Assembly: GCA_002869925.2 (NCBI GenBank)
Contig: NEWT02000036.1
Span: forward strand, 1-64,000
Length of the DNA stretch: 64,000 nucleotides
Reading direction: 5' to 3'
Source: Nitrospira sp. CG24A
Lineage (GTDB): Bacteria > Nitrospirota > Nitrospiria > Nitrospirales > Nitrospiraceae
Positions 21,260-60,982 of this stretch are shown here, piece after piece. A model generated the notes under the pieces. That model was not told where the DNA came from, ran no database searches, and worked only from the letters and a program-made list of their open reading frames with translations. The translations under genes and the position numbers were made by a program. Numbering within the stretch: position 1 is the first letter of the stretch; the number at the start of each line of letters is the position of its first letter.

Positions 21260-21289
21260 TTTACAAATCCGTGTGTGCGCCGTCAAACG
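21260..21289 (+). promoter_or_regulatory. Conserved motif TTTACAAA-N13-CGTCAAACG, copy 2
   Basis: TTTACAAA at 21260-21267 and CGTCAAACG at 21281-21289 repeat, with the same 13-bp spacer, the blocks upstream of the response regulator at 14767. It lies 89 bp upstream of the first gene of the polysaccharide locus and may be its promoter or a regulator site linking the two operons. Confidence 0.5.
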
Positions 21290-27233: not shown

Positions 27234-27236
27234 ACG

Positions 27237-28739: not shown

Positions 28740-28752
28740 GCATGTGGGTACC

Positions 28753-30002: not shown

Positions 30003-30619
30003 CCGACCGTCGCTTCGATCTGACCGACATCAATGAGTCTCTCATAGACACCATTGCAGCGGCCAGGCAAGCGTATCCGGACATTGAAGGTCGCATTGCG
30101 GCACTGGTGAACACCTTGTTGTCGCAACGCCGCTCCATGGGTTGGTCAGAAACCCTCACCACTCCGATTCATCATGATCTCAAGATGCGCAATTTCCTGA
30201 TCGATGGGGAACGCATTACGCTCATCGACATGGACTGTGTCTGTCTCGGCGACCCCTTCAGCGACCTCGGCAGTCTGATCGCGAATTTCTATCTCAATGG
30301 AATTCGAGCCGGATGTCATCAGGACAGGATTCGAGAGGCCGTGGACGTGTTCTGCCGCACCTACGCCGAATGCGTTCCCTGGAGCCCATCCTGGCCACAG
30401 GTCGACTGGCACACGGCTGCAGCGTTTATCCATGAGGTGACGCGTCGGAGCATTCGACAACTGGACGGCCAGCGTGTGACGCACATCCGCGAATACCTCG
30501 ACCTCTGTGAACGTTTGCTATCCGGCGAATCTGTTATATCGAACGAACGGAATTCACTACACCATGGATCCAAACAGGATGTGGCCCGTAAGGCATCAGA
30601 CGTCCAGAACGTGTCGTGA
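30003..30619 (+). pseudogene. C-terminal half of an APH-fold kinase (deletion remnant)
   Basis: The frame open from 29936 gives, after the junction at 30002/30003, SDRRFDLTDINESLIDTI, then HHDLKMRNFLIDG and LIDMDCVCLGDPFSDLGSL, the catalytic and metal-binding motifs of an APH kinase like that at 27237 (same ..VPW..VDWH.. region later). The N-lobe with the ATP-binding loop is missing, removed by the same deletion that cut the heparinase gene. It is 37 bp upstream of the next operon gene. Confidence 0.8.
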
Positions 30620-30656
30620 ACGCTGACTGATCGATTACGAACACTGAGAAGACACC

Positions 30657-32279: not shown

Positions 32280-32286
32280 GGCGGGA

Positions 32287-33678: not shown

Positions 33679-33694
33679 CCGAGGAAATATCGCG

Positions 33695-35710
33695 ATGAAA
33701 AAACGGATACTCATATATTGCCAACATGTTCTTGGAATGGGGCATCTCGTAAGAAGCCTGGAGATCGTTCGGGCGCTGACAGACTGGGACGTCACGTTTC
33801 TGAACGGCGGCGATCTTTGCCCCGGCATGGAATTTCCCCCTCAGACGAAGATCGTGAATCTCCCGCCGATCAAATCGGAATCGGACTTCAAGACCATCAT
33901 CGCTGCAGAACATGGTCAGGACCTGGACGTAGTGAAACGGACTCGCGCAAGTCGACTCCAAGCAGAGTTTGCCCGTATCCAGCCTGATGTCTTTCTCATC
34001 GAAATGTTTCCGTTTGGACGCAAACACTTTGCGTTCGAGTTGGTGCCGGTCTTAGAACAAATCCGGCTTAAAAAAATGCCGACGGCCGTGGTCTGCAGCC
34101 TCCGCGACATCTTGGTCAATAATAAGCGGAATCAGGCGCAGCATAACGAACGGGCGATCACGCTCATGAATCGGTACTTCGACCTGCTCTTGGTGCACGC
34201 AGATCCGCGATTCCAAACTCTCGATGAAACGTTTCCGCAGGTCCGGGAGCTTCGATGCGAGATCAGATATACGGGATTTGTTTCGCAAGAGGCTCCGCAG
34301 CAGCGCCTGGATGTGGCGACACATCGCTCTTCGGACCAACCCATGATCCTCGTGAGCATCGGAGGAGGCCGAGTCGGCTATGAACTGGTGGAATGTGCCC
34401 TGCAAGCATCGGCACAGCTTCGAACACACTTCCCGCACCGCATGATGATGTTGACGGGGCCCTATATGCCGGAGGAGCAGTTTCAAGCGCTCCTCACATC
34501 GGCGGCGATGCAGAAGCAGGTGACGATCTCGCGATACACCCCCGATTTTCTCTCCTACTTACGGGAGGCCTCTCTCTCAATCAGCATGGCCGGCTACAAC
34601 ACCTGCATGAATTTATTGACCACTGGCACCAAGGCATTGGTCATGCCGTTTACCGGTGGAGGCAATACCGAGCAAACCATCCGTGCAGAAAAGCTGGCTC
34701 AACTTGGAGTCGTCGGCGTACTCAGCGAATCGCCGTTGCGACCCGGCTACCTGGCAGAACGAATGATTCAGGCGCTCCGAACTCCGTCCTCGGCGCACAG
34801 GCTCTCCCTCGATCACGATGGTGCCAAGAAGACCGCGACATGCCTGGAAGAGCTGGCCGCGAGGAAGAAGCCTGTATCGAACCATCTGGTCCCTGGTTCC
34901 TTCTCGCTTCTGAACGGGAAACACCGAACCGCTTGGCAAACAGAATTGCGTGGAAGCCTTGAGTTGATTCAGGCTGAGGGGAAGGAAGTCCGGATCTTCT
35001 TCCGAGACGACGACATCGACGAAGATGAAGAGTCTCTTCTACGGTTGCTCGACTTGTTCCTGGCCCACGGGGCGCCGCTGAACTTGGCGATCATACCCAA
35101 CCTCCTCTCGGATGCCACCGTGAGACAGCTTCTCATGAGAGAACTATGGATTCCGGAGTCTCTCGGGCTGATTCAGCACGGATGGAGGCACACCAACCAT
35201 GAGCCAGCAGGACGGAAATGCGAGTTTGGAATCAGCCGTTCGCTGGCTGACAAATTTCACGATATAGCACGTGGAAAAATTCGGCTGGAAGAAGCCTTCG
35301 GCCCGCGATTCTATCCGGCCTTCACACCTCCCTGGAATCGCTGCACGCAGGATACGTTTGGCGTGTTGGACGAGCTTGGATTTATGGTCTTTTCCAAAGA
35401 TCAGGGGAAGGAATCCGTCGAAGGCCATCGATTCCAGGAAATTTCTACCACACTGGATCTCTATCGCTGGAAAGGCGGGGCGACGCTCCAACCTCCCGAT
35501 ATCACTACGAAGACCTTGATCAGCCAGCTATGGGAACTCGACACGATTGGAATTCTCTTGCACCATAAAGTCATGGACGACACGGCATTCACATTTCTCG
35601 ATCAACTGTTGAAGGAGCTGCGGCATTGCCCCCAGGTACGGTTCCACACGCTCAAAACCCTCAGCCAACAGATCGAAGCAGCGCAAGCAGCGTCACAGTC
35701 GTACACATGA
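33695..35710 (+). CDS. Glycosyltransferase-polysaccharide deacetylase fusion
   Basis: 671 residues. Residues 1-400 resemble the COG4671-type glycosyltransferase at 21378 (KRILIYCQHVLGMGHLVRS, VCSLRDILV, MILVSIGGGRVGYELVE, ASLSISMAGYNTCMNLL). Residues ~425-660 form a NodB-like deacetylase: FFRDDDIDEDEE (Asp438-440, metal site), QHGWRHTNH with the HxxxH pair His495/His499, and FTPPWNR. The protein lacks a signal peptide, so deacetylation would be cytoplasmic. It may transfer and then deacetylate an amino sugar. Start ATG 33695 with GAGGAAA upstream; the ABC gene overlaps its stop. Confidence 0.85.
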   Translation: MKKRILIYCQHVLGMGHLVRSLEIVRALTDWDVTFLNGGDLCPGMEFPPQTKIVNLPPIKSESDFKTIIAAEHGQDLDVVKRTRASRLQAEFARIQPDVFLIEMFPFGRKHFAFELVPVLEQIRLKKMPTAVVCSLRDILVNNKRNQAQHNERAITLMNRYFDLLLVHADPRFQTLDETFPQVRELRCEIRYTGFVSQEAPQQRLDVATHRSSDQPMILVSIGGGRVGYELVECALQASAQLRTHFPHRMMMLTGPYMPEEQFQALLTSAAMQKQVTISRYTPDFLSYLREASLSISMAGYNTCMNLLTTGTKALVMPFTGGGNTEQTIRAEKLAQLGVVGVLSESPLRPGYLAERMIQALRTPSSAHRLSLDHDGAKKTATCLEELAARKKPVSNHLVPGSFSLLNGKHRTAWQTELRGSLELIQAEGKEVRIFFRDDDIDEDEESLLRLLDLFLAHGAPLNLAIIPNLLSDATVRQLLMRELWIPESLGLIQHGWRHTNHEPAGRKCEFGISRSLADKFHDIARGKIRLEEAFGPRFYPAFTPPWNRCTQDTFGVLDELGFMVFSKDQGKESVEGHRFQEISTTLDLYRWKGGATLQPPDITTKTLISQLWELDTIGILLHHKVMDDTAFTFLDQLLKELRHCPQVRFHTLKTLSQQIEAAQAASQSYT

Positions 35711-37569
35711 TGAACGTACAACGACAGAGCCGATTCAAAGAGATTGTTTTCCGTCACCTGCTGAGAATGAAGGGACGCCTTTCCTTGGCGGCTGTGTGCC
35801 TCGTGGGGTACACAGCCTTCGAACTGCTGAAACCCTGGCCCCTCAAAGTCCTGTTCGACTACGTGTTGCTGCAGCAGCCGCTCCCGGCTTCCCTGTCTCT
35901 TCTCCAGGACGTGCTCCACAACGGTATGCTGCTGTCGCTGGGCCTTGTCGCCGGCGCGATTATCGGCATCAGCATCCTGAGCGGCGTCTTTTCCTATGGA
36001 CAGTTGTACCTGACGTCGAAAGTCGGTTTCCTGCTCAGCGCCACACTCCGGAATGAACTGTTCTCTCGCTTGCAACGCCTCTCGCTGTCGTTTCACAACC
36101 ACGCGAAGTCCGGCGAACTGCTCATCAAAGTGTCGAGCGACACGGCTGCACTCCGTGATGTCTTCGCCGAGTGGTCGCTGACGATGGCCGGTCATGGCCT
36201 GACGCTGCTCGGCATGATGGCGATCATGTTTGTGTTGAACTGGAAATTGGCCCTTGTCGCCATGGTGACCCTACCGGTTATGGGCACTCTCCTCTTCGTC
36301 CTGATCCGGAAGGTCAAGGCCACGGCCCAGAAACAGCGGAAACACGAAGGGGCGATAGCCTCTCACGTGAATGAAGTCTTGGGGGCCATCTCCCTCGTCC
36401 AGGCATTCGGACGGGAAGAGCATGAAGAATCGCGGCTCCAGAAGTACAGCGACCACCACGTGGAACAAGGCATTCACACGGCGAGACTCACCGCTTCTGT
36501 CTCCAGAATGGTCCATGTCGTGGAAGCGCTCGGAACCGCCGGGATTGTTCTCTTTGGAGGCTGGTTGGTCCTAGAAAAACAGATGACGCCGGGGGATCTG
36601 CTCATTTTTCTCTCGTATGGCCACTCGCTCTACAAACCGCTGCGGAATTTGAGCAGTCTGTCGGTCAAATTCTCCCGGGCAATGGTCAGCGCGAAACGTG
36701 TCGCGGATATCCTCGACATGGAGCCGGAGATCCGCGATCTGCCTGACGCACGACAGGCCACGGCCCTGCAGGGAGACATCGCATTTCATCAAGTCACGTT
36801 CGGCTATGAGCGCGACACCAATGTGTTGCACGAAGTGTCCTTTCACATCGAGACCGGCCAGAAGGTGGCATTGGTCGGCTCCTCTGGAGCCGGAAAGTCG
36901 ACGATCGTCAGTCTGATTCTTCGTCTCTACGAACCACAAACCGGCTCCATCGTGATCGACGGAATCGACAGCGCCCAATACAACCGGGAATCTCTCCGGC
37001 AGCACATCGGCATCGTCCTGCAAGATACGGTGTTATTCGGCGCGAGTATCGCAGAAAACATTTCCTACGGGAAACCCGATGCGACACACGATGAGATTGA
37101 ACGAGCAGCGAGGCTCGCCTATGCCCACGACTTCATTACTGCTCTCTCCAATGGCTACGACACCATTCTCGGCGAAAGGGGAAACACACTGTCCGGAGGA
37201 CAACGGCAGCGGATCTGCTTGGCGCGCGCCATTATCAAACAGCCCTCGATCCTCATCCTTGACGAACCGACATCCGCCGTGGATCCCGTGTCAGCCGCGC
37301 TGATTCGCGACACCGTGGCCCGTCTCCAGACAGGCAAGACGACCCTCGTCATTGCGCATCAATTCTTTGCGATGGATCAGTTCGATCAGATTCTGGTCCT
37401 TGAGAATGGCCGCGTCGTCGAACAAGGCAGGCACATCGACCTCATGGCTCGAAAAGGCCGTTATTGCGATCTGCTTGCGCACCAGATGCGCGAGAAGCAA
37501 TGGGAAGATGTCGGTGCATCGAATCCGCTCCATCCTGACACTGAAGGGGAAGCTGAAACATATGCTTAA
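35707..37569 (+). CDS. ABC exporter, fused membrane and ATPase domains
   Basis: 620 residues, an MsbA/lipid-flippase-type half transporter. Six membrane helices (about 15-300) precede the ATPase domain with Walker A GSSGAGKST (391-399), signature LSGGQRQR (~495), Walker B ILILDEPTSAVD and the H-loop IAHQ. ATGA overlap with the preceding deacetylase fusion supports cotranscription. It most likely flips a lipid-linked glycan or glycolipid made by the locus. A fragment of a MacB-like permease begins in its last codons (37562). Confidence 0.9.
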   Translation: MMNVQRQSRFKEIVFRHLLRMKGRLSLAAVCLVGYTAFELLKPWPLKVLFDYVLLQQPLPASLSLLQDVLHNGMLLSLGLVAGAIIGISILSGVFSYGQLYLTSKVGFLLSATLRNELFSRLQRLSLSFHNHAKSGELLIKVSSDTAALRDVFAEWSLTMAGHGLTLLGMMAIMFVLNWKLALVAMVTLPVMGTLLFVLIRKVKATAQKQRKHEGAIASHVNEVLGAISLVQAFGREEHEESRLQKYSDHHVEQGIHTARLTASVSRMVHVVEALGTAGIVLFGGWLVLEKQMTPGDLLIFLSYGHSLYKPLRNLSSLSVKFSRAMVSAKRVADILDMEPEIRDLPDARQATALQGDIAFHQVTFGYERDTNVLHEVSFHIETGQKVALVGSSGAGKSTIVSLILRLYEPQTGSIVIDGIDSAQYNRESLRQHIGIVLQDTVLFGASIAENISYGKPDATHDEIERAARLAYAHDFITALSNGYDTILGERGNTLSGGQRQRICLARAIIKQPSILILDEPTSAVDPVSAALIRDTVARLQTGKTTLVIAHQFFAMDQFDQILVLENGRVVEQGRHIDLMARKGRYCDLLAHQMREKQWEDVGASNPLHPDTEGEAETYA

Positions 37570-37768
37570 GCTTGAGTGGCCACTCGGAATCCTCACTCTT
37601 GCCAGCGCGTACGGCCCGTCGGTCGCCGCCGGCTGGCCGACCATAATCACGTCACGTTCCATTCTGTTGGCCGTCTCTTTATCGATGGCCGCGGGATTGT
37701 TCTTTGGCCTGTACCCGGCCAATGGAACAGCTCGACTCAACCCGATCGCAGCCCTGCGCTACGAGTAG
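37562..37768 (+). pseudogene. C-terminal fragment of a MacB/FtsX-type permease
   Basis: In a frame overlapping the end of the ABC exporter, 68 codons encode AAGWPTIITSRSILLAVSLS, MAAGLFFGLYPANGTARLNP and IAALRYE, the characteristic C-terminus of MacB/LolE-type permeases (..GLxFGLYPAxxAAxLxPIEALRYE). The rest of that permease and its ATPase are absent, so this is a relic of an earlier gene or rearrangement. Confidence 0.65.
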
Positions 37769-37901
37769 TCTGTGGCGTGAGATGATCGCGGGCAGACGAG
37801 ACTCCGGACGGGTGCGAGCGGGGCGTCGGTATCGCTAAGGTAGCAACCAGGCAGAGACCGCTGAACACGAACCGCGTTTCGAAGGGAACAGACTCTTGCG
37901 C

Positions 37902-39266
37902 ATGACAGCACGGCAAGCCATTGAGACCCTGGAACGCTACACCGATTGTGCACATATGCAAAGACGCTTGCAGGCTCATGCGATGCAACTGCTGGGCGAC
38001 AATCTGACGATCCTGGGTTGTCGGATCGTTGAGTCGCGGCTCAAAACTTTCCGGAATCCTGAGTCATGGCACAAGGCGAGCCTGAACGTGTGTTACGAGC
38101 TGGATGTGGAAGGATTCACCATGCCGCAAATCCTGCACGCACACGTGTTCTTGCAAGGGCGTAGCGACGCCGAATACCGGGAATGTTGCGCACGGGCGAA
38201 ATCGGACGCAATCCCTCAACATGTGCCGGATCTCGGCATGGTCGTCTGGCGTTTTCCACTGGATCCAGCGATAGATCAGTTGTCGACTCTCTGGGACATG
38301 GACTGGCCTCTGGCCAATCTCCCGCTCGGCCAGGTGCCCCAGGACTGTGTGGAATCCTGCGCCAGTCTGGAGCGCGTGGATCGACGCGTCGTCAAGTACA
38401 GCCCGGAGAGGAGCTGTGTCATCCGTTTTGATCTGCCTCGGCGCGCCGGGACACAGACACGGTCGGCCCGCGCGCTCTACGCCAAGGTCTACGCAGGCCG
38501 GGACGGAGAACTCGCGTATGAACGACAGAGGTTTTTCAATAAGCCGCCATCGCCGGACAATTCAGGGTTGGCGATCCGTACCGCTCCCGCGTTGGCATAC
38601 GACCAGTCGTTACGAATATTCTGGCAAGGGGAAGCCGCCGGGGATTCCCTGGATTCGGTGCTGGCTCATGGCAACGAGGCTCCGTATCTCGATCAGGTCG
38701 GCCGTGGTTTGGCATCCGTGCACGCGAGCGGCCTGGGCGGCACGTCGGTCGTGAAACTGGAACACCGGGTCTTCGAATGTTCGAAGAAAATTTCCAAGCT
38801 TGTGCCTGCCTTTCCATCGTGCGCTACACAGCTCAAGGCCATCAGCAAAATGCTCGAACGTGCGACCGCAACCTATGCAACGCCAGTGGCGGCGGAAGAC
38901 CCCGTCTCGTTGTACGGCGATTTTCACCCTCGACAAATGCTCATCGCGGACGGCGAGGTATGCTTCCTGGATTTCGATTTAATGGTTCAGGGAGACCCCG
39001 AGTCCGATTTGGCGGAATTCTTCGTGGCGTTGTTGGATCTTGGGTTACAACCGGAACGGGTACGGGAGGCAGTCGCGCACATCCTGATGGCCTACCAGCG
39101 TGACGCCACAAGACCGATCTGTCACGAATTATTGCGGCTCTATACGCGTATTGAATACATAGAGCATGCCTATCGGCTCTTCCTAAGGCTGGACCCCGGT
39201 TGGCGTGAAACCTTCCAGAATGCGCTCGATCGGTTCCCGCAACTACAGGATGTTTTTCCAGATTGA
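37902..39266 (+). CDS. APH-fold kinase 3 of the polysaccharide locus
   Basis: 454 residues. The kinase core is SLYGDFHPRQMLIADGEVCF (catalytic Asp340, Gln345 in place of Asn) followed by FLDFDLMVQGDPESDLAEFF. Other shared blocks are VVKYSPERSCVIRFDL (~160-175) and LYAKVYAGRDGELAYERQRF. The domain layout equals that of kinases at 27237 and 32287. The gap before it (37769-37901) carries only the relic of a permease and possibly a promoter. It probably phosphorylates a sugar for the locus. Start ATG at 37902. Confidence 0.75.
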   Translation: MTARQAIETLERYTDCAHMQRRLQAHAMQLLGDNLTILGCRIVESRLKTFRNPESWHKASLNVCYELDVEGFTMPQILHAHVFLQGRSDAEYRECCARAKSDAIPQHVPDLGMVVWRFPLDPAIDQLSTLWDMDWPLANLPLGQVPQDCVESCASLERVDRRVVKYSPERSCVIRFDLPRRAGTQTRSARALYAKVYAGRDGELAYERQRFFNKPPSPDNSGLAIRTAPALAYDQSLRIFWQGEAAGDSLDSVLAHGNEAPYLDQVGRGLASVHASGLGGTSVVKLEHRVFECSKKISKLVPAFPSCATQLKAISKMLERATATYATPVAAEDPVSLYGDFHPRQMLIADGEVCFLDFDLMVQGDPESDLAEFFVALLDLGLQPERVREAVAHILMAYQRDATRPICHELLRLYTRIEYIEHAYRLFLRLDPGWRETFQNALDRFPQLQDVFPD

Positions 39267-39327
39267 CGGACCAATGGGTTGCGATTGAATACCACAACTA
39301 TGGCCTTCTCAACCGAACACGACTGAG

Positions 39328-40839
39328 ATGAAATATCTACATCATTCAACATTCAATCAATGCCGTCGAGAAGGAGCGCTCCGAACAAAGGGTGCATCCT
39401 GCAACATTCTCCATGTCGGCATTGTGATCGTTCTCATGCATGTGCCCTTTGCCGGCCCGGCGCAGGCCGCAGCTGAATTGAAGGAGGGGCCTGCGAGCCG
39501 CGCAACGCCATCATCAACCGATGCGTCGTTAACAAAACCGCCCGTTGCACAACCTCTTGACCCAAATACACCATCGAACCCTACCACACCCGATGCTCCG
39601 GCTCTCGAGCCTTTTGACCCGAATGCACCACCGAGAGCTACCATCCCCATCGGCCCCAATCTATTCTTTGGTGGCTATGTATCGCTCGATGGAGAAAGCA
39701 ATCGAAACTATAGCCTCTCCTCCCATCTAGGCAAAGCCGACAGCATCTTAACCACGAACCTTGCCCCCGCGTTCGCCTATGAGCCCAATCAATACCTTCA
39801 GCTCTACCTGAATCCTATTCTCGAGATACCAGTCACCGTGGAGAAAACCGAAGATACGTCGAAAAGGACCGAGTTGAACATGAACCTGGCGTTTCTCACG
39901 CTGAAAAATGTTGTCCCAGGAGCCAAACTGCAAGTCGGCAGACAGCGTTTCATCGACTCCAGACGATGGCTCTTCAATGAAAACATGGACGCAATCAGGT
40001 TAGGTTACCAGTATGAAAGTTTTTCCGTGGAGGTGTCGGCCAGCCAACTGAATCTGGTTCAGCGAAATGTATTGAGACGAGAGGCAGAGGAGGACGAGGA
40101 AAGGCTTCTCAATTATTACGCATATGCCGATTATAAATTCGGCAAGAACAAGAAGAGTCACGTCGGCATATTTGCACTCTATCAGGATCAGCAACGACTC
40201 GGCACGGCGCAACCTATTTATGTCGGCCTCCAGTTAGGAGGGAGACTCTTCGGGGATTTGAAATACTGGCTGCAAACAGCTGTTGTCCGTGGCACAGATG
40301 ACGCCAAGACCATTCGAGGCGAGGCCATCGATGTGGGGTTGACGCAACGCTTTGGCGGATCCTGGCAACCGTCCATTACAGTCGGGTACGCCTACGGCAC
40401 CGGAGACAGAAATCCCGACGATAATGTCGATCGATCCTTTCGACAGACCGGCTTTCAAGGCAATTCCGATAAATTCAATGGCGTCGCGCGGTTCAAATAT
40501 TACGGGGAAGTGCTGGATCCCAGGCTGACGAATCTTATGGTCTTTACCGGCGGGGTCGGCATCCAACCTTTCGAAAAGACCTCATTCGACGTGGTCTACC
40601 ACTATTATCTACAAGACCATGCGTCCACACGCCTTCGTGGCTCTGATTTCACAATTGGCCCTACCGGTCTGAGTAAACATGTAGGAAGTGAAGTCGATTT
40701 TATAGCGGGATATCAAGGCATACCGAACCTGCAAACAAAGTTTGTCCTCGGTTATTTTTTACCTGGCAACGCTTTTGCCGACACGTCCCGTGACGGCGCG
40801 TTCTTAGCCAGCATACTATTCCGGTACAACTTCTACTAA
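39328..40839 (+). CDS. Alginate-export (AlgE)-type outer-membrane porin
   Basis: 503 residues: a signal peptide (ILHVGIVIVLMHVPFAGPAQA), a disordered proline/aspartate-rich linker with two related units (PLDPNTPSNPTTPDAP; PFDPNAPPRATIP), then an AlgE-family barrel (VGRQRFIDSRRWLFNENMDA, IRLGYQYESFSVEVSAS, HVGSEVDFIAGYQG) ending FRYNFY. AlgE exports anionic polysaccharide. As the last gene of the locus it presumably forms the outer-membrane exit for the product made upstream. It begins 61 bp after kinase 3. Confidence 0.85.
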   Translation: MKYLHHSTFNQCRREGALRTKGASCNILHVGIVIVLMHVPFAGPAQAAAELKEGPASRATPSSTDASLTKPPVAQPLDPNTPSNPTTPDAPALEPFDPNAPPRATIPIGPNLFFGGYVSLDGESNRNYSLSSHLGKADSILTTNLAPAFAYEPNQYLQLYLNPILEIPVTVEKTEDTSKRTELNMNLAFLTLKNVVPGAKLQVGRQRFIDSRRWLFNENMDAIRLGYQYESFSVEVSASQLNLVQRNVLRREAEEDEERLLNYYAYADYKFGKNKKSHVGIFALYQDQQRLGTAQPIYVGLQLGGRLFGDLKYWLQTAVVRGTDDAKTIRGEAIDVGLTQRFGGSWQPSITVGYAYGTGDRNPDDNVDRSFRQTGFQGNSDKFNGVARFKYYGEVLDPRLTNLMVFTGGVGIQPFEKTSFDVVYHYYLQDHASTRLRGSDFTIGPTGLSKHVGSEVDFIAGYQGIPNLQTKFVLGYFLPGNAFADTSRDGAFLASILFRYNFY

Positions 40840-41028: not shown

Positions 41029-41149
41029 CTGGGAGCCTGTCCGACATTCTGAAGGAAATCCTCATGGATGCTGATGTTCGTTTCACTATTTACCTTTCCT
41101 TGGATCACCCGTCTAACCCATCAGACGCAGACAGAAGGAGGGTATTATT

Positions 41150-41560
41150 ATGCGACAGGTTCATTCAAAGATCTCTATGGTTCTTCTTTCGATCGCACTG
41201 CTCCTATCGGGGTGCACGTCGACGTTGGTGCGCGACGATGTGAAGCGGACAACGGGGCTGGACGGCCACTGTGGTGGGAGCGAGTGGGCCGACAATTCTT
41301 CGCTGGCCGTGTTGCCTGTGCCGGTCGTCGCGTTCTTCGTGCCCCACTTCGATCTACACAAAGTTTCCAGTGAGCCTTATTTGCATCGGTGCGGTGAGAG
41401 CACACGCGTCGTCAATCGCGATGTGTCGGTCAACACGACGGCCTGTATCCCAGCTGGTCTCACGCGGATTGTGACACTGGGTGTCTGGCAGTGGTGCCCG
41501 GCACGTGTGGCTTGGTCGGCAGATGTGTTGGCAGATGGACGAAGGACAACGACCGACTGA
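41150..41560 (+). CDS. Bor-like small lipoprotein
   Basis: 136 residues. Lipoprotein signal with lipobox LLLSGC, then DGHCGGSEWADNSSLAVLPV, a hydrophobic patch, and VVNRDVSVNTTACIPAGLTR followed by VTLGVWQWCPARVAWSA. The last part resembles the end of Bor/Iss-type lipoproteins (FITLGIYTPLEARVYC) but the overall match is weak. Four cysteines after the lipid anchor suggest disulfides. A strong AGAAGGAGGG site precedes the ATG at 41150. The next gene starts 69 bp downstream. Confidence 0.6.
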   Translation: MRQVHSKISMVLLSIALLLSGCTSTLVRDDVKRTTGLDGHCGGSEWADNSSLAVLPVPVVAFFVPHFDLHKVSSEPYLHRCGESTRVVNRDVSVNTTACIPAGLTRIVTLGVWQWCPARVAWSADVLADGRRTTTD

Positions 41561-41629
41561 GGCGCTCGGTTGTGGTGTGGCGTGAAGCGGAACTCGAAGA
41601 CTCGCTGTCACTCGATGAGGAGGAACACT

Positions 41630-42562
41630 ATGTGGTATATGGTACGACGATCAACAGCAGTCTGGTTCTTGAGTGGGTCGGCAGTGCTGCTGGCCAGTCC
41701 CGCGTGGGCACAGACCGTTCCTATCGTTCAGAATGGGCAGGTGGAAATCTTCGGAGCCTTGCCACGGACGACGAGCGGCGAGGTGAATGCCGACGCGCTG
41801 AGGCAAACGATTCAAACGCAGTTTGCTCGGCCAGGGGTGCAGGAGATTCAATTTCGCAATGTTTCTCTGACAGAGGCAGAGCAGCGGGCATTATTTCTGA
41901 GTGGCGACCCGGACAAGAATCTACTTCGGCAAGTCTCGATTGCTGTGCCGTCGTCGAACGGGACGGAGCGACACGTCACCTTTCGTGGTTCGGACTTTCG
42001 TGCGAAGGTCGGGCGGGAAGAGGGGCAGTTACGGGCCAAGATCGAGGGCATCGATCAATCACAGTTGACGGAAACCGAGCGACAGAGTCTGCGAGCACAA
42101 TTCGACCGATTGCGTCTCGAAGTGGCCAACGATCGGGGCGGTAATCAGGCTAACAATCGTGGGGGTCGTGGCGGAGGTGACAACAACGGTCGCGGCTCTG
42201 GAAATAGCGGGCATGGCTCCGACAACAGCGGGTTGGGTCGCGATGGCGATAACATTGGGCGTGGTGGGTGGGACGATGTCCGCAATGTGATTGATGATCG
42301 GCGTGGAGATCGGCGAGAAGACAGTCAACTGAATCGCCGAGAGGATCGGCGTGAGGACCGGCAGGCCGATCGGCGGGAAAATCGCAGGTCGAACGAGGGC
42401 GGTGAAATCCGGGGGCTCAATCGGGCAGATCAGATGGCCGGTGAACATGGCCGACAGGGGCGAGATCATGACCAGATGATCCAAATGGATCGACCGAACA
42501 GACCGGAGCGGCTGGAACGATCAGAACATTCCGAGAACTCGGGACATTCCGGTCGGAACTAG
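41630..42562 (+). CDS. Secreted protein with Asp/Arg-rich tail
   Basis: 310 residues. Signal peptide (TAVWFLSGSAVLLASPAWA), a folded part of about 140 residues (VEIFGALPRTTSGEVNADAL, VREEGQLRAKIEGIDQSQLT), then a low-complexity tail: glycine/asparagine repeats followed by alternating Asp/Arg (RREDRREDRQADRRENRR) and a histidine/serine end. The polyampholyte tail is like those in the proteins at 45426 and 46729. The family is unknown; a role in envelope or matrix binding is possible but not shown. ATG at 41630 has GAGGAGGAA upstream. Confidence 0.65.
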   Translation: MWYMVRRSTAVWFLSGSAVLLASPAWAQTVPIVQNGQVEIFGALPRTTSGEVNADALRQTIQTQFARPGVQEIQFRNVSLTEAEQRALFLSGDPDKNLLRQVSIAVPSSNGTERHVTFRGSDFRAKVGREEGQLRAKIEGIDQSQLTETERQSLRAQFDRLRLEVANDRGGNQANNRGGRGGGDNNGRGSGNSGHGSDNSGLGRDGDNIGRGGWDDVRNVIDDRRGDRREDSQLNRREDRREDRQADRRENRRSNEGGEIRGLNRADQMAGEHGRQGRDHDQMIQMDRPNRPERLERSEHSENSGHSGRN

Positions 42563-42715: not shown

Positions 42716-43618
42716 ATGATGATGGGGAAATGGGTGAAGGCGCTGGTGGGCGTGGTGGTGGTTATTGGGTTATCGGGAACAGGGGGTTATGCGGCGGACA
42801 AGACCGATCTAGGACCACCTCCGTCCGAACAGAATTGGCAGGTTGGCTTTACCCCGAGCTATAGCAGTGGGAATTACGGAACGAATACAACCAGTTCGTT
42901 TTTTTACGCTCCAATTTCGATCCGTCGTTTCTTCAAAGACGGTGATGTCTCCCTGGTGATTCCGTTCGTCACGACGACAACGGACGGTGCGGTTACCCTG
43001 GTTGGTGGGCAACCTACTCAAACCCTGCCTGACAGTTGTTTTAGCAATAGTGGTTCAGGGAATGCTGAAGACAGGCCAGAGTGCCAAGGGACCGGGGGGG
43101 CGACGGGTGGTGTCCAGGGTCAGAAGGTAACGACATCCGGCCTTGGCGACATCATTCTCAGGGGCCGTTACTATCTCGTTGAGGAGAAGGATTGGGTTCC
43201 CCTCATTGCGATCACGGGTCGTGTGAAGCTACCGACTGCCGATGAGTCGCGCGGGCTCGGGACGGGCAAGATGGATGAGGGAGTTGGAGCAGAAGTTTCC
43301 AAGCGTTTGGGGGACAACTGGATTACATTTCTCGACGGGGGCTTCAATATCATCGGTCGACCGGAAGGCCGGAATCTCAGAAACCAGTGGTGGTATGACG
43401 TTGGAGGGGGATATTACTTCACGAAGGACTTGCTTGGCAGCGTCTACTTCGAGGAATACCGGTCGCTCGTTTCCGGAAGCCAAAACATCCGCGACGTCTT
43501 TTTCGGCATGAACTATCGGGCTTCCTCAGCGTGGCGTTTTAATGGCGGAGCCGCCGTGGGTCTCTCCAACGGGGCTCCCGACTATACGCTGTCAGTCGGC
43601 ACCAGTTACCGTTTCTAG
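42716..43618 (+). CDS. Outer-membrane beta-barrel of the phenol-degradation/transporter type
   Basis: 300 residues. Signal peptide (VKALVGVVVVIGLSGTGGYA), then repeated amphipathic strands (WQVGFTPSYSSGNYG, VSLVIPFVTTTTDGAV, GDIILRGRYYLVEEKDWVPL, GYYFTKDLLGSVYFEEYRS) and the C-terminal phenylalanine of VGTSYRF. The pattern matches the PF13557-type MetA-pathway barrel. It lies 154 bp after the Asp/Arg-tail gene and 97 bp before the sigma factor. It probably takes up small molecules; substrate unknown. ATG at 42716 or 42719. Confidence 0.7.
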   Translation: MMMGKWVKALVGVVVVIGLSGTGGYAADKTDLGPPPSEQNWQVGFTPSYSSGNYGTNTTSSFFYAPISIRRFFKDGDVSLVIPFVTTTTDGAVTLVGGQPTQTLPDSCFSNSGSGNAEDRPECQGTGGATGGVQGQKVTTSGLGDIILRGRYYLVEEKDWVPLIAITGRVKLPTADESRGLGTGKMDEGVGAEVSKRLGDNWITFLDGGFNIIGRPEGRNLRNQWWYDVGGGYYFTKDLLGSVYFEEYRSLVSGSQNIRDVFFGMNYRASSAWRFNGGAAVGLSNGAPDYTLSVGTSYRF

Positions 43619-43714
43619 CCCTTTCGAGGCGTTTACTACCGGCCTAACTTTTCGTCCAATGATACAGATACGCAGCATAAGCAGGCGCGTGATGGTCATG
43701 CCGGATCAGCGAGC

Positions 43715-44299
43715 ATGGCCATGCCGATAGAGCACCGTGAATCGTCGGATGAAGCCAAACTGATTGCGCGGAGCCTGGCGCAGGATCCCGACGCTTTTGG
43801 GCAATTAGTCGAACGATACGCGACGGTCATTGTGAACCTAGCCTATCGCATGGTAGGTGACCGCACTGAGGCTGAGGATCTGGCTCAGGAAACGTTTGTC
43901 GCAGCATTCAAGTCGCTGCCGGCGTTCAGGGCTGAGTCGAAGTTTTCCACGTGGCTCTACCGGATTGCCGCGAACAAATGTAAGGATTGGCTCCGAGCCA
44001 AACGACCGGGGCAGGCGGTCTATGATGTCGATGTTGAGGATGTGCTCGATGACCGAGTGGTGGAAGAGCGAACCCCGGAACGGCTGTTATCACAGCAGCA
44101 AGTCGCTGAGCAGTTGGGTGGGGCGATTCAACGGTTGCCGCCGCTCTATCGAGAAGCCTTTGTGCTGAAACATGTCGAGGGATTAAGTTACGAGGAGATG
44201 CAGGAGATTCTCGGCGTGAAGACGGATACGTTGAAAATGCGTGTCTATAAGGGCCGTCTGCAGCTGAGCCGGGAGTTGGCAGAACTGAAAGAAGTGTAG
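43715..44299 (+). CDS. ECF RNA polymerase sigma factor
   Basis: 194 residues with sigma region 2 (FGQLVERYATVIVNLAYRMV, EAEDLAQETFVAAFKSLPAF, WLYRIAANKCKDWLRAKRPG) and region 4 (LPPLYREAFVLKHVEGLSYE, EEMQEILGVKTDTLKMRVYK). It directs RNA polymerase to envelope-stress-type promoters. The next gene begins one base after the stop and encodes its likely membrane anti-sigma factor. No autoregulatory promoter could be identified by eye. Start ATG 43715. Confidence 0.9.
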   Translation: MAMPIEHRESSDEAKLIARSLAQDPDAFGQLVERYATVIVNLAYRMVGDRTEAEDLAQETFVAAFKSLPAFRAESKFSTWLYRIAANKCKDWLRAKRPGQAVYDVDVEDVLDDRVVEERTPERLLSQQQVAEQLGGAIQRLPPLYREAFVLKHVEGLSYEEMQEILGVKTDTLKMRVYKGRLQLSRELAELKEV

Positions 44300-44300
44300 G

Positions 44301-44987
44301 ATGGATGAGCAAGACCTACTGATCCAACGCTTTCTCGACGACGATTTAACACCGGAGGAGCGAGTGGCCTTTCTCCAAGCGGTGGATACGGATCCGTTGT
44401 TGCGGCGGCGCTGGCTGAATCTGGAACTGGTCGTGGCCGAGACGGCGCAGTTGCCCCGTTTCGCCCCGTCGTCGCGATTCGTTGCCCAGGTGTTGGCCAA
44501 GTTAGCCCCCGCGTCCATCAGCCCCTGGGATCGACTCCGCGCGGCGATGACGGTGCCACGGATCCTGGAATGGAATCTCGCAGGCGCGATGGCAATGGTG
44601 TGTGTCGCTGTGGTGGCGGTCGTGGGCCTGTTGCGGTTTGTGCCGGACCGCATCGTGGAAGTGCCGGTGCCTGTTGCTGGAAGTCAGGCGCAGACGGCGT
44701 CGCTCGCGCCAGGGCAAGGGGCCAAGGTATTTGTGCGGTTCATGCTGCTTCAGCCTGGTGCTCGGTCTGTCTCGGTGGCCGGTGACTTCAATGGCTGGGA
44801 TCCAGGGCAAACCAAGCTAGAACAGTCCGAGGGTGGCGTATGGACGGCGATGATCGCACTGAAGCCTGGCCGGTATCAGTACATGTTCGTGATTGACGGC
44901 AAGCAGTGGATCCCCGATCCGCTGGCGATAGATGGGGCGGGTGATGGATTTGGAGCGCAGAATGCAGTACTCGATGTCGCCATCTGA
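44301..44987 (+). CDS. Membrane anti-sigma factor with periplasmic CBM48 domain
   Basis: 228 residues. The N-terminal cytoplasmic part (1-70; QRFLDDDLTPEERVAFLQAV) resembles anti-sigma domains and is encoded 1 bp after the sigma gene. A membrane helix spans about 92-112 and the rest lies outside, carrying an AMPK1/glycogen-binding CBM48 module (~142-228) with GDFNGWDPGQTKLE, LKPGRYQYMFVIDGKQWIPD. CBM48 modules bind alpha-glucans. The architecture suggests that glycan binding outside releases the sigma factor inside; this is inferred. The following gene encodes a related CBM48 lipoprotein. Confidence 0.8.
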   Translation: MDEQDLLIQRFLDDDLTPEERVAFLQAVDTDPLLRRRWLNLELVVAETAQLPRFAPSSRFVAQVLAKLAPASISPWDRLRAAMTVPRILEWNLAGAMAMVCVAVVAVVGLLRFVPDRIVEVPVPVAGSQAQTASLAPGQGAKVFVRFMLLQPGARSVSVAGDFNGWDPGQTKLEQSEGGVWTAMIALKPGRYQYMFVIDGKQWIPDPLAIDGAGDGFGAQNAVLDVAI

Positions 44988-45040
44988 TTCTCCATGCCGA
45001 TCTCTTGCAACGAGTCGAGGTACTGAGTACTCTCTCGTGC

Positions 45041-45421
45041 ATGGGAACACCGCCTATAGGGTTCAGCCGTCTCCTGCAAGCCATGATGGTCGCGTGCATG
45101 GTCGTCGGCCTGTCGGCTTGTGCGCAGACCTTGAAACCGGAATTTCCCAAGCTGGTGGTCAGCGGCGTGCGGTTCACATTGTTGGAGCCAAAAGCCAAGC
45201 AGGTGTCGCTCGTGGGTTCCTTTAACGGGTGGGCCAAAGAGGCGACCCCGATGAAGGTTCGCGATGGGACAGGTCTCTGGTCGGTGGATATGCCGTTGCA
45301 AGAGGGAGAATACACCTTCATGTATGTGGTTGATGAGAAGAGATGGGTGACGCCTCCGATGGCTGAGGATTTTGTGACGGATGGATTCGGACACACAAAC
45401 GGGGTCCTGATTGTCCACTAA
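45041..45421 (+). CDS. CBM48 lipoprotein
   Basis: 126 residues. Lipoprotein signal with lipobox VVGLSAC (MVACMVVGLSACAQTLK) and one CBM48 module (about 35-126): VRFTLLEPKAKQVSLVGSFN, GWAKEATPMK, EGEYTFMYVVDEKRWVTPPM. It is a close relative of the CBM48 part of the anti-sigma factor 54 bp upstream. The ATG at 45041 puts the lipobox at the proper place. It may present glycan to, or compete with, the anti-sigma sensor. The following gene begins 4 bp after its stop. Confidence 0.75.
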   Translation: MGTPPIGFSRLLQAMMVACMVVGLSACAQTLKPEFPKLVVSGVRFTLLEPKAKQVSLVGSFNGWAKEATPMKVRDGTGLWSVDMPLQEGEYTFMYVVDEKRWVTPPMAEDFVTDGFGHTNGVLIVH

Positions 45422-45425
45422 GACT

Positions 45426-46304
45426 ATGTCTACGCGTATCAGCAGACCAGTATTGTTCCTCGCCCTCACCTTGTGGCTGCCCGTTGTTCCAGCCTTGGCG
45501 GAGCCACTCTCGTCGCAGGATCGGGAGGCGATCGATCGGTTGCGTACGGCGCGGGGCCATTCGGCTGGAGAGGTCAATCAATTAATGGAACAAGTGAACA
45601 GGGCCGGCGAAAAAGGCCTTCCGACCGAGGCGTTAGCGAACAAGGTGAAAGAGGGTTTGGCCAAGGGTGTGGAGCCGAGGCGAATCGATCCGGTGCTGAA
45701 ACAGATGGTGGGGAACTTCGAGTCGGCCCGAGAGGTGTTGCAAGAATCGGTGGCGAAGGGGATGATCGATCAAGGGCAGGGGAATCGTGAGCGAGCCATG
45801 GAGTCGTTGGCCGAAGCATTTAGCCGCGGCGCGACGGCAGATGAGGTGCGTGATTTGGCGCGTAGCGGTCAACACCAAGGGCAAAGAATGAGTCCTGACA
45901 TGCTGGGAGTCGGTGCGAAAAGTTTGGCGGTGATTAAGGAAGCCAGCATCCCCTCGAAAGACGGCGCAGCGGTTGTGGCGGAGGGTATGAGGCAGGGCTT
46001 TCGTCCATCCGAGCTGGCGGATCTGGCGCGTGATATAAAACGGCATGGAAAAGATTTTCAGGAGGGGCGTCTGACAACGGAATCCATTCGCGACCAGATT
46101 TCGAGAGGTGAGCGGGGCGATCGACTGTTTCGCGATGAGGATCACAGTGGGTCCGGTGGTGGAGATCGGATGGATCGGGGCAAAGACTCGGATCGCGGAG
46201 GGCGGGATGATCGAGGTGATCGTTCTGACCGTAGTGGTGGCCGTGACGACCGTGGTAGACAGGATGATCGTGGCGGTGGCGGCCACGGTGGTCGTGACCA
46301 TTAG
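45426..46304 (+). CDS. Secreted helical protein with Asp/Arg-rich tail
   Basis: 292 residues. Signal peptide (VLFLALTLWLPVVPALA), then helical repeats of about 30-40 residues (AGEVNQLMEQVNRAGEKGLP, LANKVKEGLAKGVEPRRIDP, VADEVRDLARS-like, ..GMRQGFRPSELADLARDI) reminiscent of small alpha-repeat domains, and a C-terminal polyampholyte tail (RGGRDDRGDRSDRSGGRDDR). It is the last gene of the sigma operon. The family is not recognised. The ATG at 45426 is 4 bp after the preceding stop; a TTG at 45411 is unlikely. Confidence 0.6.
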   Translation: MSTRISRPVLFLALTLWLPVVPALAEPLSSQDREAIDRLRTARGHSAGEVNQLMEQVNRAGEKGLPTEALANKVKEGLAKGVEPRRIDPVLKQMVGNFESAREVLQESVAKGMIDQGQGNRERAMESLAEAFSRGATADEVRDLARSGQHQGQRMSPDMLGVGAKSLAVIKEASIPSKDGAAVVAEGMRQGFRPSELADLARDIKRHGKDFQEGRLTTESIRDQISRGERGDRLFRDEDHSGSGGGDRMDRGKDSDRGGRDDRGDRSDRSGGRDDRGRQDDRGGGGHGGRDH

Positions 46305-46728: not shown

Positions 46729-47055
46729 TTAGCGGCCGTGGCCACCGTGATCGCCCCGTTGATCCACATGCCGCTCTGCACGTTGATCGAACTGACGGTC
46801 TTCTCTTCGGTCCATCTGCCGGTCATCTTGGCGATCAGCTCGCCGATCCAGTTGTCGATCCTCACGCCGATCTTCCCGGCGATCGAGTTGCCGATCTTCT
46901 CGTCGGTCTTCCCGTCTATCCAATTGCCGATCCACCCTTCGATCTTCTTGTCGGATATCCGTCTGTGCAAATACCACATTGGGTAGGACGGCAGGGGCTG
47001 CCATGGCCATGACCAAGCTGGCAATCGTTCCGGCTTTTAAGAGGCTGTGCTTCAT
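46729..47055 (-). CDS. Secreted Asp/Arg tetrapeptide-repeat protein
   Basis: 108 residues: a signal peptide (SLVMAMAAPAVLPNVVFAQ) and then almost only a DRRxDRQx repeat (DRQLDRREDRREDRQLDRR and further units) followed by a histidine/glycine end. Every four residues the pattern DR(Q/R)x returns, giving a mixed-charge helix or disordered chain. The frame is open to 47154 but the ATG at 47055 starts the signal peptide. Two neighbouring plus-strand proteins (41630, 45426) have related tails. Function unknown. Confidence 0.65.
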   Translation of the reverse strand: MKHSLLKAGTIASLVMAMAAPAVLPNVVFAQTDIRQEDRRVDRQLDRREDRREDRQLDRREDRREDRQLDRRADRQDDRQMDRREDRQFDQRAERHVDQRGDHGGHGR

Positions 47056-47494
47056 GATGCGTGCTCTTTCTGAGAGAGGGTAATATGTGCGAGTTGCGGC
47101 TGATATTGGGCGGGGACGAACCAGCTCTCTCATCTGGAGGCCTGCTCCAATCAACCTGTCACTAAGTAAGACGGTGGGAAGAGAATATGGTAAATGACCT
47201 CATACCAGTGCCTGAAATATATGAGCCATCAGGGGAAGGATTTTGGTGTCGCCACACTGAGGGGAATCAGTCGAGTAGACCGCGCGGTATGCCTACAATC
47301 GCCCGTCGTGTCGTGAAAGAGGACCGAAGTAGAAAAGCCTCTCCCTCGCGATGCGACCAACGCTATGGACACCTCTGACATAGGAGCATGGACTATCGGA
47401 TTTCCACGGAGAATAATGCCGTTTCTTGACAGTGGTGCTGAGGCGAGAGTACGGTAAATTTATTACGCATCACACACTGAGACTGGTTTAACTG
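47056..47494. other. Divergent intergenic region
   Basis: This 439-bp gap separates the minus-strand Asp/Arg-repeat gene from the plus-strand caspase-like gene. It holds the candidate promoter at 47426-47455; I see no gene, and the short frames present lack ribosome sites. Confidence 0.4.
47426..47455 (+). promoter_or_regulatory. Candidate sigma-70-type promoter of the caspase-like gene
   Basis: TTGACA (47426-47431), 18-bp spacer, TACGGT (47450-47455), 39 bp upstream of the ATG at 47495. The -35 is consensus; the -10 matches TAnnnT only. Confidence 0.4.
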
Positions 47495-48877
47495 ATGTTG
47501 CCGATCGCCTGCCGACGACTGCAGCTCTTCCTGTTCGCGTTTCTTACCTGCTTGCTGGTGGTGCCGTTCTGTGCGCCAGTGGCATTCGCACAATTGGGCA
47601 AGCCAGAAGGGCTGTACTATAAGTCGTGGGCCATTGTGATCGGAGTGGAAAACTATCTCCTCGCTCCGAAAATTCCAGGCGCGATCGAAGATGCCAAAAG
47701 AGTAGCCCAGGCGTTTCGCCAATTGGGTTTCGACGAGGTTGTCGAACTCTACGACAAGGATGTGAGTGCTCGCCGTCTGCAGCAGACATTGTCAGATTTT
47801 TTGCCCCGCAAGGTTGGCCGCTATGATCGGCTCGTGATCTATTTCGCCGGACATGCCGGTGTCACTCAGGATCTTGACGGCAATGAACTCGGATATCTCG
47901 TTCCCTGGGATGCGCAGAGAGAGAATGTCTCTAAATCCCTCACGTTCGAACACCTCAAAGAATTCAGTCGGCGTAGCGCATCCAAACATACCCTTTTCCT
48001 CTTGAATGCTGCCGTTCGCGGGTGGGAGGTGAGTACGATTCAACCGTTGGCTCTGGAAGGGCGATTGGCCCCGGAAGACGAAACAGAACGGCGCGCTGTG
48101 CAAGTGTTGACGGCGGGTGATAAAGGCGAGTCGTTGAGTCAGGAGAATGGGAAAAGCTTGTTTGTGCAGGCGTTGGTGAATGGACTGAGCGGTACGGCTG
48201 ATCGCAATAAAAATGGATGGCTCATGGCCTCGGAAATTGGAGTGTATATACAGCAACAAGTTCTGGAGCAGTCGAAAGGCGCTCAGCATCCCCTCTTTGT
48301 GCAGCTTGAGGGGGAAGGGGATACGGTGTTGATGGAGGGGCGAAAGGCTGCCTTTACTCACGGAGCCGAGCCCCAGTCACCAGCTGAACGACGACAGGCT
48401 GCCAAGATGCAATATGAACGAGCGTTCGCACTTCTTCAAACCGAGAAGTCACCGGAGGAAGCGTTGGAGAGATTGGATAAAGCGCTGGAATACGACCCCA
48501 CGTTCGGCGACGCCTATGTGCTCAAGAGCTATGTGCGGTTGGAAGTGCTGCCAAATCTTGAGGACGCGTTATCTGCGGCAACGCTGGCGGTACAGTATGC
48601 CCCGAAGAACCCTGATGCGCAGTATACCCTCGGGTTGATTCACGAAAAACGTGGGCAGTATACCGAGGCAGAACATGCCATGCGAGAGGCGCTGGTGGTC
48701 AATCCCAACTATGTGGATGTGTATTTCTCGCTGGGCCTCCTCTATGCCGACAAGCTAATGGATCAATCGAAATCGGTCGAGGCCTTCAGGCGCTATCTCG
48801 AACTCGGCGGAAACCATGCCCGTGCCAGGACTGCTGTTGCGCAACAGTCACCAACTGCCGCTCCCTTGAAGCCGTAG
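47495..48877 (+). CDS. Secreted caspase-like (C14) pseudopeptidase with TPR repeats
   Basis: 460 residues. Signal peptide (FAFLTCLLVVPFCAPVAFAQ), a caspase-fold domain (about 40-270: WAIVIGVENY, AIEDAKRVAQAFRQLGF, LVIYFAGHAGV with His120) and TPR repeats (about 300-450: AFALLQTEKSPEEALERLDK, NPDAQYTLGLIHEKRGQYTE). At the place of the catalytic DACFSG it has LLNAAVRG, so the nucleophile Cys is Ala173 and the preceding Asp is Asn171. It is therefore probably a non-catalytic, binding or scaffold member. A promoter candidate lies 39 bp upstream; the ribosome site is poor. Confidence 0.8.
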   Translation: MLPIACRRLQLFLFAFLTCLLVVPFCAPVAFAQLGKPEGLYYKSWAIVIGVENYLLAPKIPGAIEDAKRVAQAFRQLGFDEVVELYDKDVSARRLQQTLSDFLPRKVGRYDRLVIYFAGHAGVTQDLDGNELGYLVPWDAQRENVSKSLTFEHLKEFSRRSASKHTLFLLNAAVRGWEVSTIQPLALEGRLAPEDETERRAVQVLTAGDKGESLSQENGKSLFVQALVNGLSGTADRNKNGWLMASEIGVYIQQQVLEQSKGAQHPLFVQLEGEGDTVLMEGRKAAFTHGAEPQSPAERRQAAKMQYERAFALLQTEKSPEEALERLDKALEYDPTFGDAYVLKSYVRLEVLPNLEDALSAATLAVQYAPKNPDAQYTLGLIHEKRGQYTEAEHAMREALVVNPNYVDVYFSLGLLYADKLMDQSKSVEAFRRYLELGGNHARARTAVAQQSPTAAPLKP

Positions 48878-54585: not shown

Positions 54586-55221
54586 ATGGCGACACAAGAA
54601 CTGTGGCAATTACATCTGGGAGCATGGCCTATCGGTCCGTCCAAGATTCATTTTCGGGTGTGGGCTCCTTATGCCAAGCGGGTGACGGTCGATCTTGTTA
54701 GTCCACCGCAGTTAGCGAGAAACCAACCCATTCAGCTGAAACCGTGCGAGCATGGATACTTTGAAGCCACGGTGTGCGGGATCGAACCAGGCGCTCGGTA
54801 TCGCTATGTATTAGACGGCACTGAAGGAAGGGTTTGTCTATTCTGGGCAACGATCCACGTTTCGTCGTCGCCGCCATGGGGGGTCGTCGATTTCCCGCCC
54901 TCCCCACAATGTATCGTCTATTCTCAAAACCACGATCAGGTCGGGAACCCCACAGAGGGAGGACGTCTCAGCACCGTAGTTCCCCGCGACGCGCTGAAAG
55001 TGGCGGTCGCAGCCTGTCGCTTGGCGCCGAATATTCCGCTGCTGTTCATGGGTGAAGAATACGGAGAGACCACGCCGTTTCTGTACTTTTTGGAGAACAC
55101 GAACAAACCATTTCTGTCCCGGCTTTCAGCGTGGCGATCTACCTGGAATGCATCCCGTCAACGTAACAATGGCACCAATGAGCCACCTCACTCAGTTGGA
55201 AGCATGAGAGCGGTGGGTTGA
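54586..55221 (+). pseudogene. treZ: Gutted treZ (maltooligosyl-trehalose trehalohydrolase)
   Basis: The frame starts like TreZ (LWQLHLGAWPIGPSKIHFRV, then WAPYAKRVTVDL: the N-terminal beta domain), then after ~80 residues jumps from LDGTEGR through unrelated VCLFWATIHVSSSPPWGVVD to the end of the catalytic barrel (IVYSQNHDQVGNPTEGGRLS, TVVPRDALKVAVAACRL, PLLFMGEEYGETTPFLYFLE). About 300 central residues with the nucleophile and acid/base are gone and only the NHDQ aspartate remains. The C-terminus is also changed. The product cannot hydrolyse the TreY product. Confidence 0.8.
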
Positions 55222-55515
55222 TCCGCAAAGATCAATCGGTGTTTGGTCATCCCTTACGGGAGGCGTTGCGCAATGCTGCATGTCGCTTGCCAGAACATTT
55301 CTGTCGCTATTTTACCCGCGGTATCTTCTCTTATAGCCTCTCGACTTGCGTGGTGGCGGTGGAGGTGAGGGTTTACTCAACTGTGACCCCCAAGGAGTGG
55401 TTGACTTTGCTTAGGCGTGACTGACAAGGTTGACAGATCTGGGACGCCGGAACTCCATCTGAAAATGTTCGCGGATGGACGCTTCAAACAATCCGAGAAC
55501 CTGCCTGAGAATACA

Positions 55516-58431: not shown

Positions 58432-58609
58432 GCCTCGGCACATTGACTGCGCCCCTGGAAATCTCTACGTCACTGCGTCATCATTGACTGCGGCGTTCAA
58501 ATGTGAAGCGGCCAGCCAAAAGCCTCCCATAATTTCCGCTTGGATGGTAGGATGGCGGCCTCTGAAGCGTATTAGTTAGGTGGAGATTGGAACGGTAAGG
58601 AGGAGAGTT
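58432..58609. other. Short gap, nothing recognised
   Basis: About 178 bp between treY and the DUF5752 gene; no clear promoter, terminator or small gene is visible. Confidence 0.3.
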
Positions 58610-59278: not shown

Positions 59279-59295
59279 AGACGAGGATATTTGCT

Positions 59296-60975: not shown

Positions 60976-60982
60976 TGGGTGC

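Follow-up and report, generated by a model that had tools for sequence, protein, structure and literature searches.

A conserved sigma/anti-sigma gene set with CBM48 domains in Nitrospira and its predicted extracellular matrix regulon

Background

Outer carbohydrate-binding modules on anti-sigma or sigma factors are already known from RsgI (PMC6056542) and from the ECF52 group (PMC5826349). In the SigI-RsgI systems of Clostridium thermocellum, an autoregulated sigma operon encodes a membrane anti-sigma factor with an extracytoplasmic sensory module and has a tie to polysaccharides, as in the locus presented here. However, SigI does not count as a canonical ECF factor, the genes in its regulons are for enzymes of polysaccharide degradation, and that source is not known to describe a CBM48 sensor, a CBM48 lipoprotein or a solenoid partner (PMC6056542). 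The ECF52 proteins, e.g. SCO4117, also resemble our locus in joining an ECF sigma factor, an anti-sigma-like part, a membrane helix and an outer carbohydrate-binding domain, and release upon ligand binding has been proposed for them; they differ in being single polypeptides, found in Actinobacteria only, whose CBM is of a different type and which include a zinc finger, and in having no CBM lipoprotein or solenoid (PMC5826349). A third likeness is with AlgU-MucA-MucB of Pseudomonas, where, according to PMC7400510, an ECF sigma factor, a membrane anti-sigma factor and a periplasmic partner control an exopolysaccharide, although MucB answers to lipids. Finally, the glycogen-binding domain of AMPK beta (PMC2642990) is a regulatory glycan sensor with the same CBM fold and Trp/Trp/Asn platform as the domain described below, but it belongs to a cytosolic kinase subunit and carries K126, whereas ours is the periplasmic part of an anti-sigma factor and carries Met.

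Here we describe a gene set of Nitrospira sp. CG24A that combines an ECF sigma factor with CBM48 proteins. It lies in a window of 64,000 nucleotides (the whole stretch of DNA analysed, from contig NEWT02000036.1); coordinates are those of the window, and features are on the forward strand unless stated.

Results

The initial annotation had read positions 43715-45421 as a sigma factor, a membrane anti-sigma factor with a CBM48 domain and a CBM48 lipoprotein, and this is confirmed here by profiles, topology and structural modelling. The sigma factor gene (43715-44299), kept in 40 Nitrospira-type loci, encodes a protein of 194 residues that matched the Pfam profiles Sigma70_r2 (E=4.7e-22) and r4_2 (E=1.6e-14), both above cut-off, as was TIGR02937, and shows the ECF layout of regions 2 and 4 only in about 200 residues. 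Directly 3' of it, 44301-44987 encodes a predicted anti-sigma factor of 228 residues with an N-terminal helical domain of the sigma-binding type, a single hydrophobic segment (approximately residues 93-115) and a C-terminal domain above the gathering cut-off for both AMPK1_CBM (6.8e-10) and CBM_48 (1e-9; residues 145-226). This arrangement of a cytoplasmic helical domain, one membrane helix and an outer domain is that of membrane anti-sigma factors. In the AlphaFold model, residues 3-68 form N-terminal helices and residues 87-113 a long helix, and the CBM is modelled with confidence (pLDDT of about 90); we place the periplasmic CBM48/AMPK-beta-type domain at residues 142-226. The N-terminus resembles the NCBIfam model NF052375 'anti-sigma factor' with an E value (2.5e-6) that falls under the cut-off of that model, and the HxxxCxxC motif of zinc anti-sigma factors is absent from this domain (zf-HC2, E=0.096 only).

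The next gene (45005-45421) encodes a lipoprotein with a lipobox (LSAC) recognized by inspection and a second CBM48 domain (CBM_48, 5.9e-11; AMPK1_CBM, 3.8e-9). These two proteins account for the only two AMPK1_CBM matches in the whole 3.36-Mb genome, whose nearest named relatives are Nitrospira. On the sequence evidence, the gene at 45411-46304 is the fourth member of the module, overlooked in the initial annotation. Its product, conserved alongside the other three in different phyla, bears a signal peptide (by inspection), a predicted all-helical solenoid fold (pLDDT above 90 in the core) and a disordered Gly/Arg/Asp-rich tail. It matched no Pfam family, and a Foldseek comparison of the model with solved structures yielded nothing at E<=0.001, a result that does not prove the fold new.

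We compared these proteins with the systems outlined above. The anti-sigma factor gave no RsgI match in Pfam or NCBIfam and its sigma factor fits the ECF profile, which sets the pair apart from the RsgI family. It is likewise distinct from ECF52, as sigma and anti-sigma factors are encoded by separate genes and there is no zinc finger. None of the module proteins matched MucA or MucB in Pfam or NCBIfam, and no sequence relation was found between the sensor parts.

The order sigma, anti-sigma, lipoprotein, proposed at the outset as something to look for in other genomes, was retained in no fewer than 14 genomes of the same genus and in the majority of Nitrospira loci, and the grouping is therefore not due to chance. 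Among the best 80 loci of the genome collection, 56 carried the sigma factor, the CBM anti-sigma factor, a second CBM protein and the solenoid together, and 14 further loci the sigma factor, anti-sigma factor and solenoid. Most of these loci were from Nitrospira, N. defluvii included, and the other carrier records were named as other Nitrospirota, Vicinamibacterales, Acidobacteriota, Rokubacteria, Atribacteria, Gemmatimonadota, Aliifodinibius, Deltaproteobacteria and Spirochaetota. At least the sigma factor, anti-sigma factor and solenoid were present in the records named Acidobacteriota, Gemmatimonadota, Rokubacteria, Atribacteria and others, these non-Nitrospira carriers being mostly metagenome-assembled, with single cases that could be misbinned. 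Two gene orders occur across the loci, that of the deep Nitrospirota being lipoprotein, sigma, anti-sigma, solenoid. A strict lipobox expression matched 27 of the 53 short partners, and most of the others have, by inspection, a Cys at the end of a hydrophobic stretch. Gemmatimonadota and Aliifodinibius carry the second CBM at the end of a larger exported protein, beta-rich in appearance and possibly barrel-like.

Some loci showed particular arrangements. A Rokubacteria contig (L109:3880-5118) has sigma factor, anti-sigma factor, membrane helix and CBM48 in a single open frame that resembles the ECF52 layout and may represent either a genuine fusion or an error in sequencing. One locus of the deep Nitrospirota (L101:5318-6772) has a sensor histidine kinase directly 5' of the module, and the GTTTAC promoter described below was not found there; in this case the module may be under two-component control. 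An open frame of 893 codons in a Candidatus Cloacimonadota record (L128:792-3470) contains three CBM48-type domains in tandem.

The model of the anti-sigma CBM matched the AMPK glycogen-binding domain with a Z of about 12 and an rmsd of 1.5, and fitted the CBM48 of amylases, branching enzymes and feruloyl esterases (one of the latter solved with xylobiose) about equally well, the best single match being an archaeal amylase CBM. In rat AMPK beta1, residues W100, K126, W133, L146, T148 and N150 contact the carbohydrate (PMC2642990, PMC4032982), and mutation of K126 lowered glycogen binding (PMC2642990); the key residues of the beta1 sequence used for this numbering were checked against both sources. 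Across 72 anti-sigma CBMs, the W100 equivalent was W in 100%, W133 was W in 98% and N150 was N in 98%, while K126 was replaced by M in 90% and L146 by F in 95%, and T148 was variable. The 68 partner CBMs displayed a similar picture (W100, W in 100%; W133, W in 95%; N150, N in 94%; K126, M in 60%; L146, F in 76%; T148 variable). The window anti-sigma CBM has the W100, W133 and N150 equivalents and Met at K126. Since the stacking platform is kept and the lysine is not, we read this domain as a likely sugar binder, for which a carbohydrate ligand is plausible and the specificity may be other than that for glycogen.

Alignment of the 40 Nitrospira-type loci disclosed a conserved block 5' of the sigma factor gene, amid diverged surrounding DNA, with the form of an ECF-type promoter (GTTTAC-N16/17-CGTC(T)AA). 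It was exact in 32 loci and had one change in 6 more (38 of 40 in total), 69-88 nt before the sigma start. In the window it reads GTTTAC-N16-CGTCCAA (43631-43659) and is the predicted promoter of the sigma operon. A search of the genome with GTTTACN{16,17}CGTCNAA yielded four exact sites against none with the reversed control, and three of them (43631, 21259 and 33574) fall within the window; the fourth (C33:25991) is inside a coding gene and was taken as chance. The site at 21259-21287 is 5' of the first exopolysaccharide (EPS) gene and has an equivalent in the compared relatives having that gene, and the one at 33574-33603, with a 17-nt spacer, lies 5' of the genes for the second GT28-type enzyme and for the ABC exporter and is near-identical in genomes G007 and G008. 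Sites with one mismatch were found at 41088-41116, 5' of a small lipoprotein gene (many relatives have an exact site in this position), and at 14703-14731, 5' of an OmpR-type response regulator gene, and in G067 an exact site precedes a regulator gene of OmpR type; outside the window, one-mismatch matches were at control level (10 in all vs 13). A site on the reverse strand with two mismatches (47167-47195) is 5' of an Arg/Asp-rich secreted protein gene and has equivalents before R/D/Q-rich proteins in relatives (e.g. loci L063, L068, L071, L077, L087, L093 and L095); two-mismatch sites are by themselves at chance level, and relatives carry exact or near-exact sites at the same places.

The number of sites followed the presence of the module. 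Same-genus genomes with the module carried 42 sites in 14 genomes (4 control matches), and those without it 5 sites in 15 genomes (4 control matches), a difference with a Mann-Whitney p of 3.4e-6, not corrected for phylogeny. In relatives, sites lie 5' of the same genes (those for EPS, the lipoprotein, the regulator and R/D-rich proteins), also on other contigs: unlinked copies of the small lipoprotein gene have them, and they are still present in five genomes (G002, G003, G007, G120 and G201) where the EPS cluster and the sigma operon are on different contigs. In deep Nitrospirota and other phyla, neither this pattern nor simple dyad counting revealed a promoter motif before the module. We discarded a GTTTACACTTTGGCTCATAACTCGTC site that recurs in genomes similar to that of N. 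defluvii, as no convincing exported gene follows it and a genome with no AMPK1_CBM matches has it too.

The EPS cluster (21378-40839) has an exact site at both of its transcription units. It encodes a GT28-type glycosyltransferase (21378-22589), a double GT4 glycosyltransferase similar to EpsE (22586-25252), two heparinase II/III proteins (25023-27233 and 28744-30036) with an APH-family kinase between them (27237-28739), three further APH-family kinases (29936-33678), a second GT28-type glycosyltransferase (33695-35710), an MsbA/HepA-type ABC exporter (35626-37569), another APH-family kinase (37896-39266) and an outer-membrane porin of the alginate-export family (39328-40839; Alginate_exp, E=2.8e-33). 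The latter recalls AlgU-MucA-MucB, although the cluster is not the alginate operon. The EPS marker gene was found in 6 of 32 same-genus genomes, all of them module carriers (Fisher p=0.0055), and was missing from 9 of the 15 same-genus carriers, several of these genomes being incomplete. EPS is thus not the constant output; the regulon seems to have a constant core, made up of the sigma operon and the genes for surface proteins, to which some lineages have added EPS.

Among the surface proteins, the 41088 site heads an operon of a small conserved lipoprotein (41150-41560), a secreted Gly/Arg/Asp-rich protein (41570-42562) and an outer-membrane barrel of the Phenol_MetA_deg family (42716-43618), the first two being predicted regulon members and the barrel gene being conserved 5' of sigma and also adjoining the module in loci L093-L096. 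On the reverse strand, 46729-47055 encodes a secreted Arg/Asp-rich protein with DRREDRQ repeats (likely ATG at 47055; the ORF is listed to 47154), and R/D/Q-rich proteins with a 5' ECF-type site recur among relatives. Both this protein (46729-47154) and that at 41570-42562 consist largely of Arg/Asp/Gln repeats (DRREDRQ). A further predicted member is the OmpR-type response regulator (14767-15453), and directly 5' of this gene lies that of a large PAS-HAMP histidine kinase (12073-14661). The region also encodes a TPR-repeat protein of caspase-like (Peptidase_C14) type whose N-terminus resembles a signal peptide (47495-48877).

The trehalose/alpha-glucan group noticed about 10 kb away is indeed present: genes for a TreZ-like fragment, TreY, TreS and TreT are at 54586-62203, some 9 kb from the module. 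Beside TreY, TreS and TreT, the frame at 54586-55221 joins CBM_48 directly to a TreZ C-terminal stretch (model 364-435), and seems to be a TreZ without its catalytic middle or a frameshifted gene. The supposed link of these genes to the switch was not supported, because the motif scan of the genome disclosed no exact promoter site before them and only one of the nine relatives looked at had trehalose genes no more than about 20 kb 3' of the module.

Discussion

We believe that, on balance, these data favour an ECF sigma/anti-sigma switch that spans the membrane, senses a carbohydrate polymer on the outer side of the cytoplasmic membrane and controls the extracellular matrix of the cell. The N-terminal helices of the anti-sigma factor would hold the sigma factor, and its CBM48 domain, displayed in the periplasm, would sample a carbohydrate polymer there. 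From the outer membrane, the lipoprotein with its CBM48 could act as a partner, together with the periplasmic solenoid, in presenting the ligand, competing for it or relaying it, a role that in other phyla might be taken by the CBM48 at the end of the larger, barrel-like exported protein. Upon a change in the ligand state, the anti-sigma factor would let go of the sigma factor, which could then transcribe its own operon, the EPS synthesis and export cluster, the small lipoprotein/outer-membrane protein operon and the genes of the Arg/Asp-rich secreted proteins. We infer the pairing of this sigma factor with this promoter, the binding of a glycan by the CBM and the direction of the response; the glycan would be the signal, most simply the EPS of the cell itself or a related envelope glycan acting as feedback. 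The replacement of K126 by Met and the variable T148, the 9 of 15 carriers in which the EPS marker is missing and the lack of the motif in other phyla count against this reading. A broader proposal, which we put forward tentatively and with less than even confidence, is that of a widespread four-protein transmembrane glycan-sensing system, including a new family of solenoids, by which bacteria of many phyla would monitor the polysaccharide of their own envelope or matrix and adjust matrix production.

CBM48/E-set domains can make protein contacts instead of binding sugars. The main alternative, possible though we consider it unlikely, is that the module is an envelope-stress switch in the manner of RseA-RseB or MucA-MucB, in which the CBM48 domains have given up sugar binding and bind each other or the solenoid. 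The signal would then come from outer-membrane proteins or lipoproteins that are misfolded or mislocalised, with EPS as one of the outputs. The presence of two CBM48 proteins and a third periplasmic protein in one operon, the abundance of outer-membrane proteins and lipoproteins in the predicted regulon and the loss of K126 agree with this, as does the action of MucA-MucB via a periplasmic partner (PMC7400510). However, the stacking Trp pair and the Asn are near-invariant in anti-sigma and partner CBMs across phyla, beyond the needs of a pure protein-binding scaffold, and several predicted regulon members make or export glycans.

The initial annotation had seen in this locus a signal path from an extracellular or periplasmic alpha-glucan to ECF-controlled genes, and part of it stands: there is an ECF switch with a periplasmic domain of glycan-binding type, and the predicted regulon, made up of the EPS cluster and secreted and outer-membrane proteins, is glycan related. 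Its alpha-glucan and trehalose part is not supported, the predicted output being the extracellular matrix rather than alpha-glucan metabolism. CBM48 usually accompanies enzymes of alpha-glucans, an amylase domain gave the best single match among structures and the trehalose genes are nearby, but the absence of an exact promoter site before these genes, their proximity to the module in a single relative, the replaced K126 and the comparable match of the feruloyl-esterase CBM48s make a sensor controlling alpha-glucan or trehalose metabolism improbable. We give similarly little weight to the idea that a different ECF sigma factor uses this promoter, the sigma/anti-sigma pair being only one target with an unrelated regulon of its own. 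A motif before the sigma factor gene is no proof of autoregulation, and a few genomes lacking the module carry one or two sites; against this, the number of sites tracks the module (42 in 14 genomes vs 5 in 15, with a background of 4 in each group).

We found no description of a CBM48/AMPK1_CBM domain combined with an anti-sigma or sigma factor in the openly accessible literature, which omits most subscription papers. In that literature, the CBM48 sensor, its second CBM48 partner, the solenoid family, the cross-phylum spread and the matrix regulon were not found described either. How bacteria sense the condition of their own extracellular matrix is largely an open question, and here a sensor domain, its partners, a promoter and target genes are all named, which makes the ligand and the regulon directly testable. 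The module is also a recognisable one to seek in Gemmatimonadota, Acidobacteriota and other little-studied phyla. Nitrospira, which are key nitrifiers, grow in flocs and biofilms, and the switch proposed here, if true, would explain how EPS and surface proteins are controlled in them.
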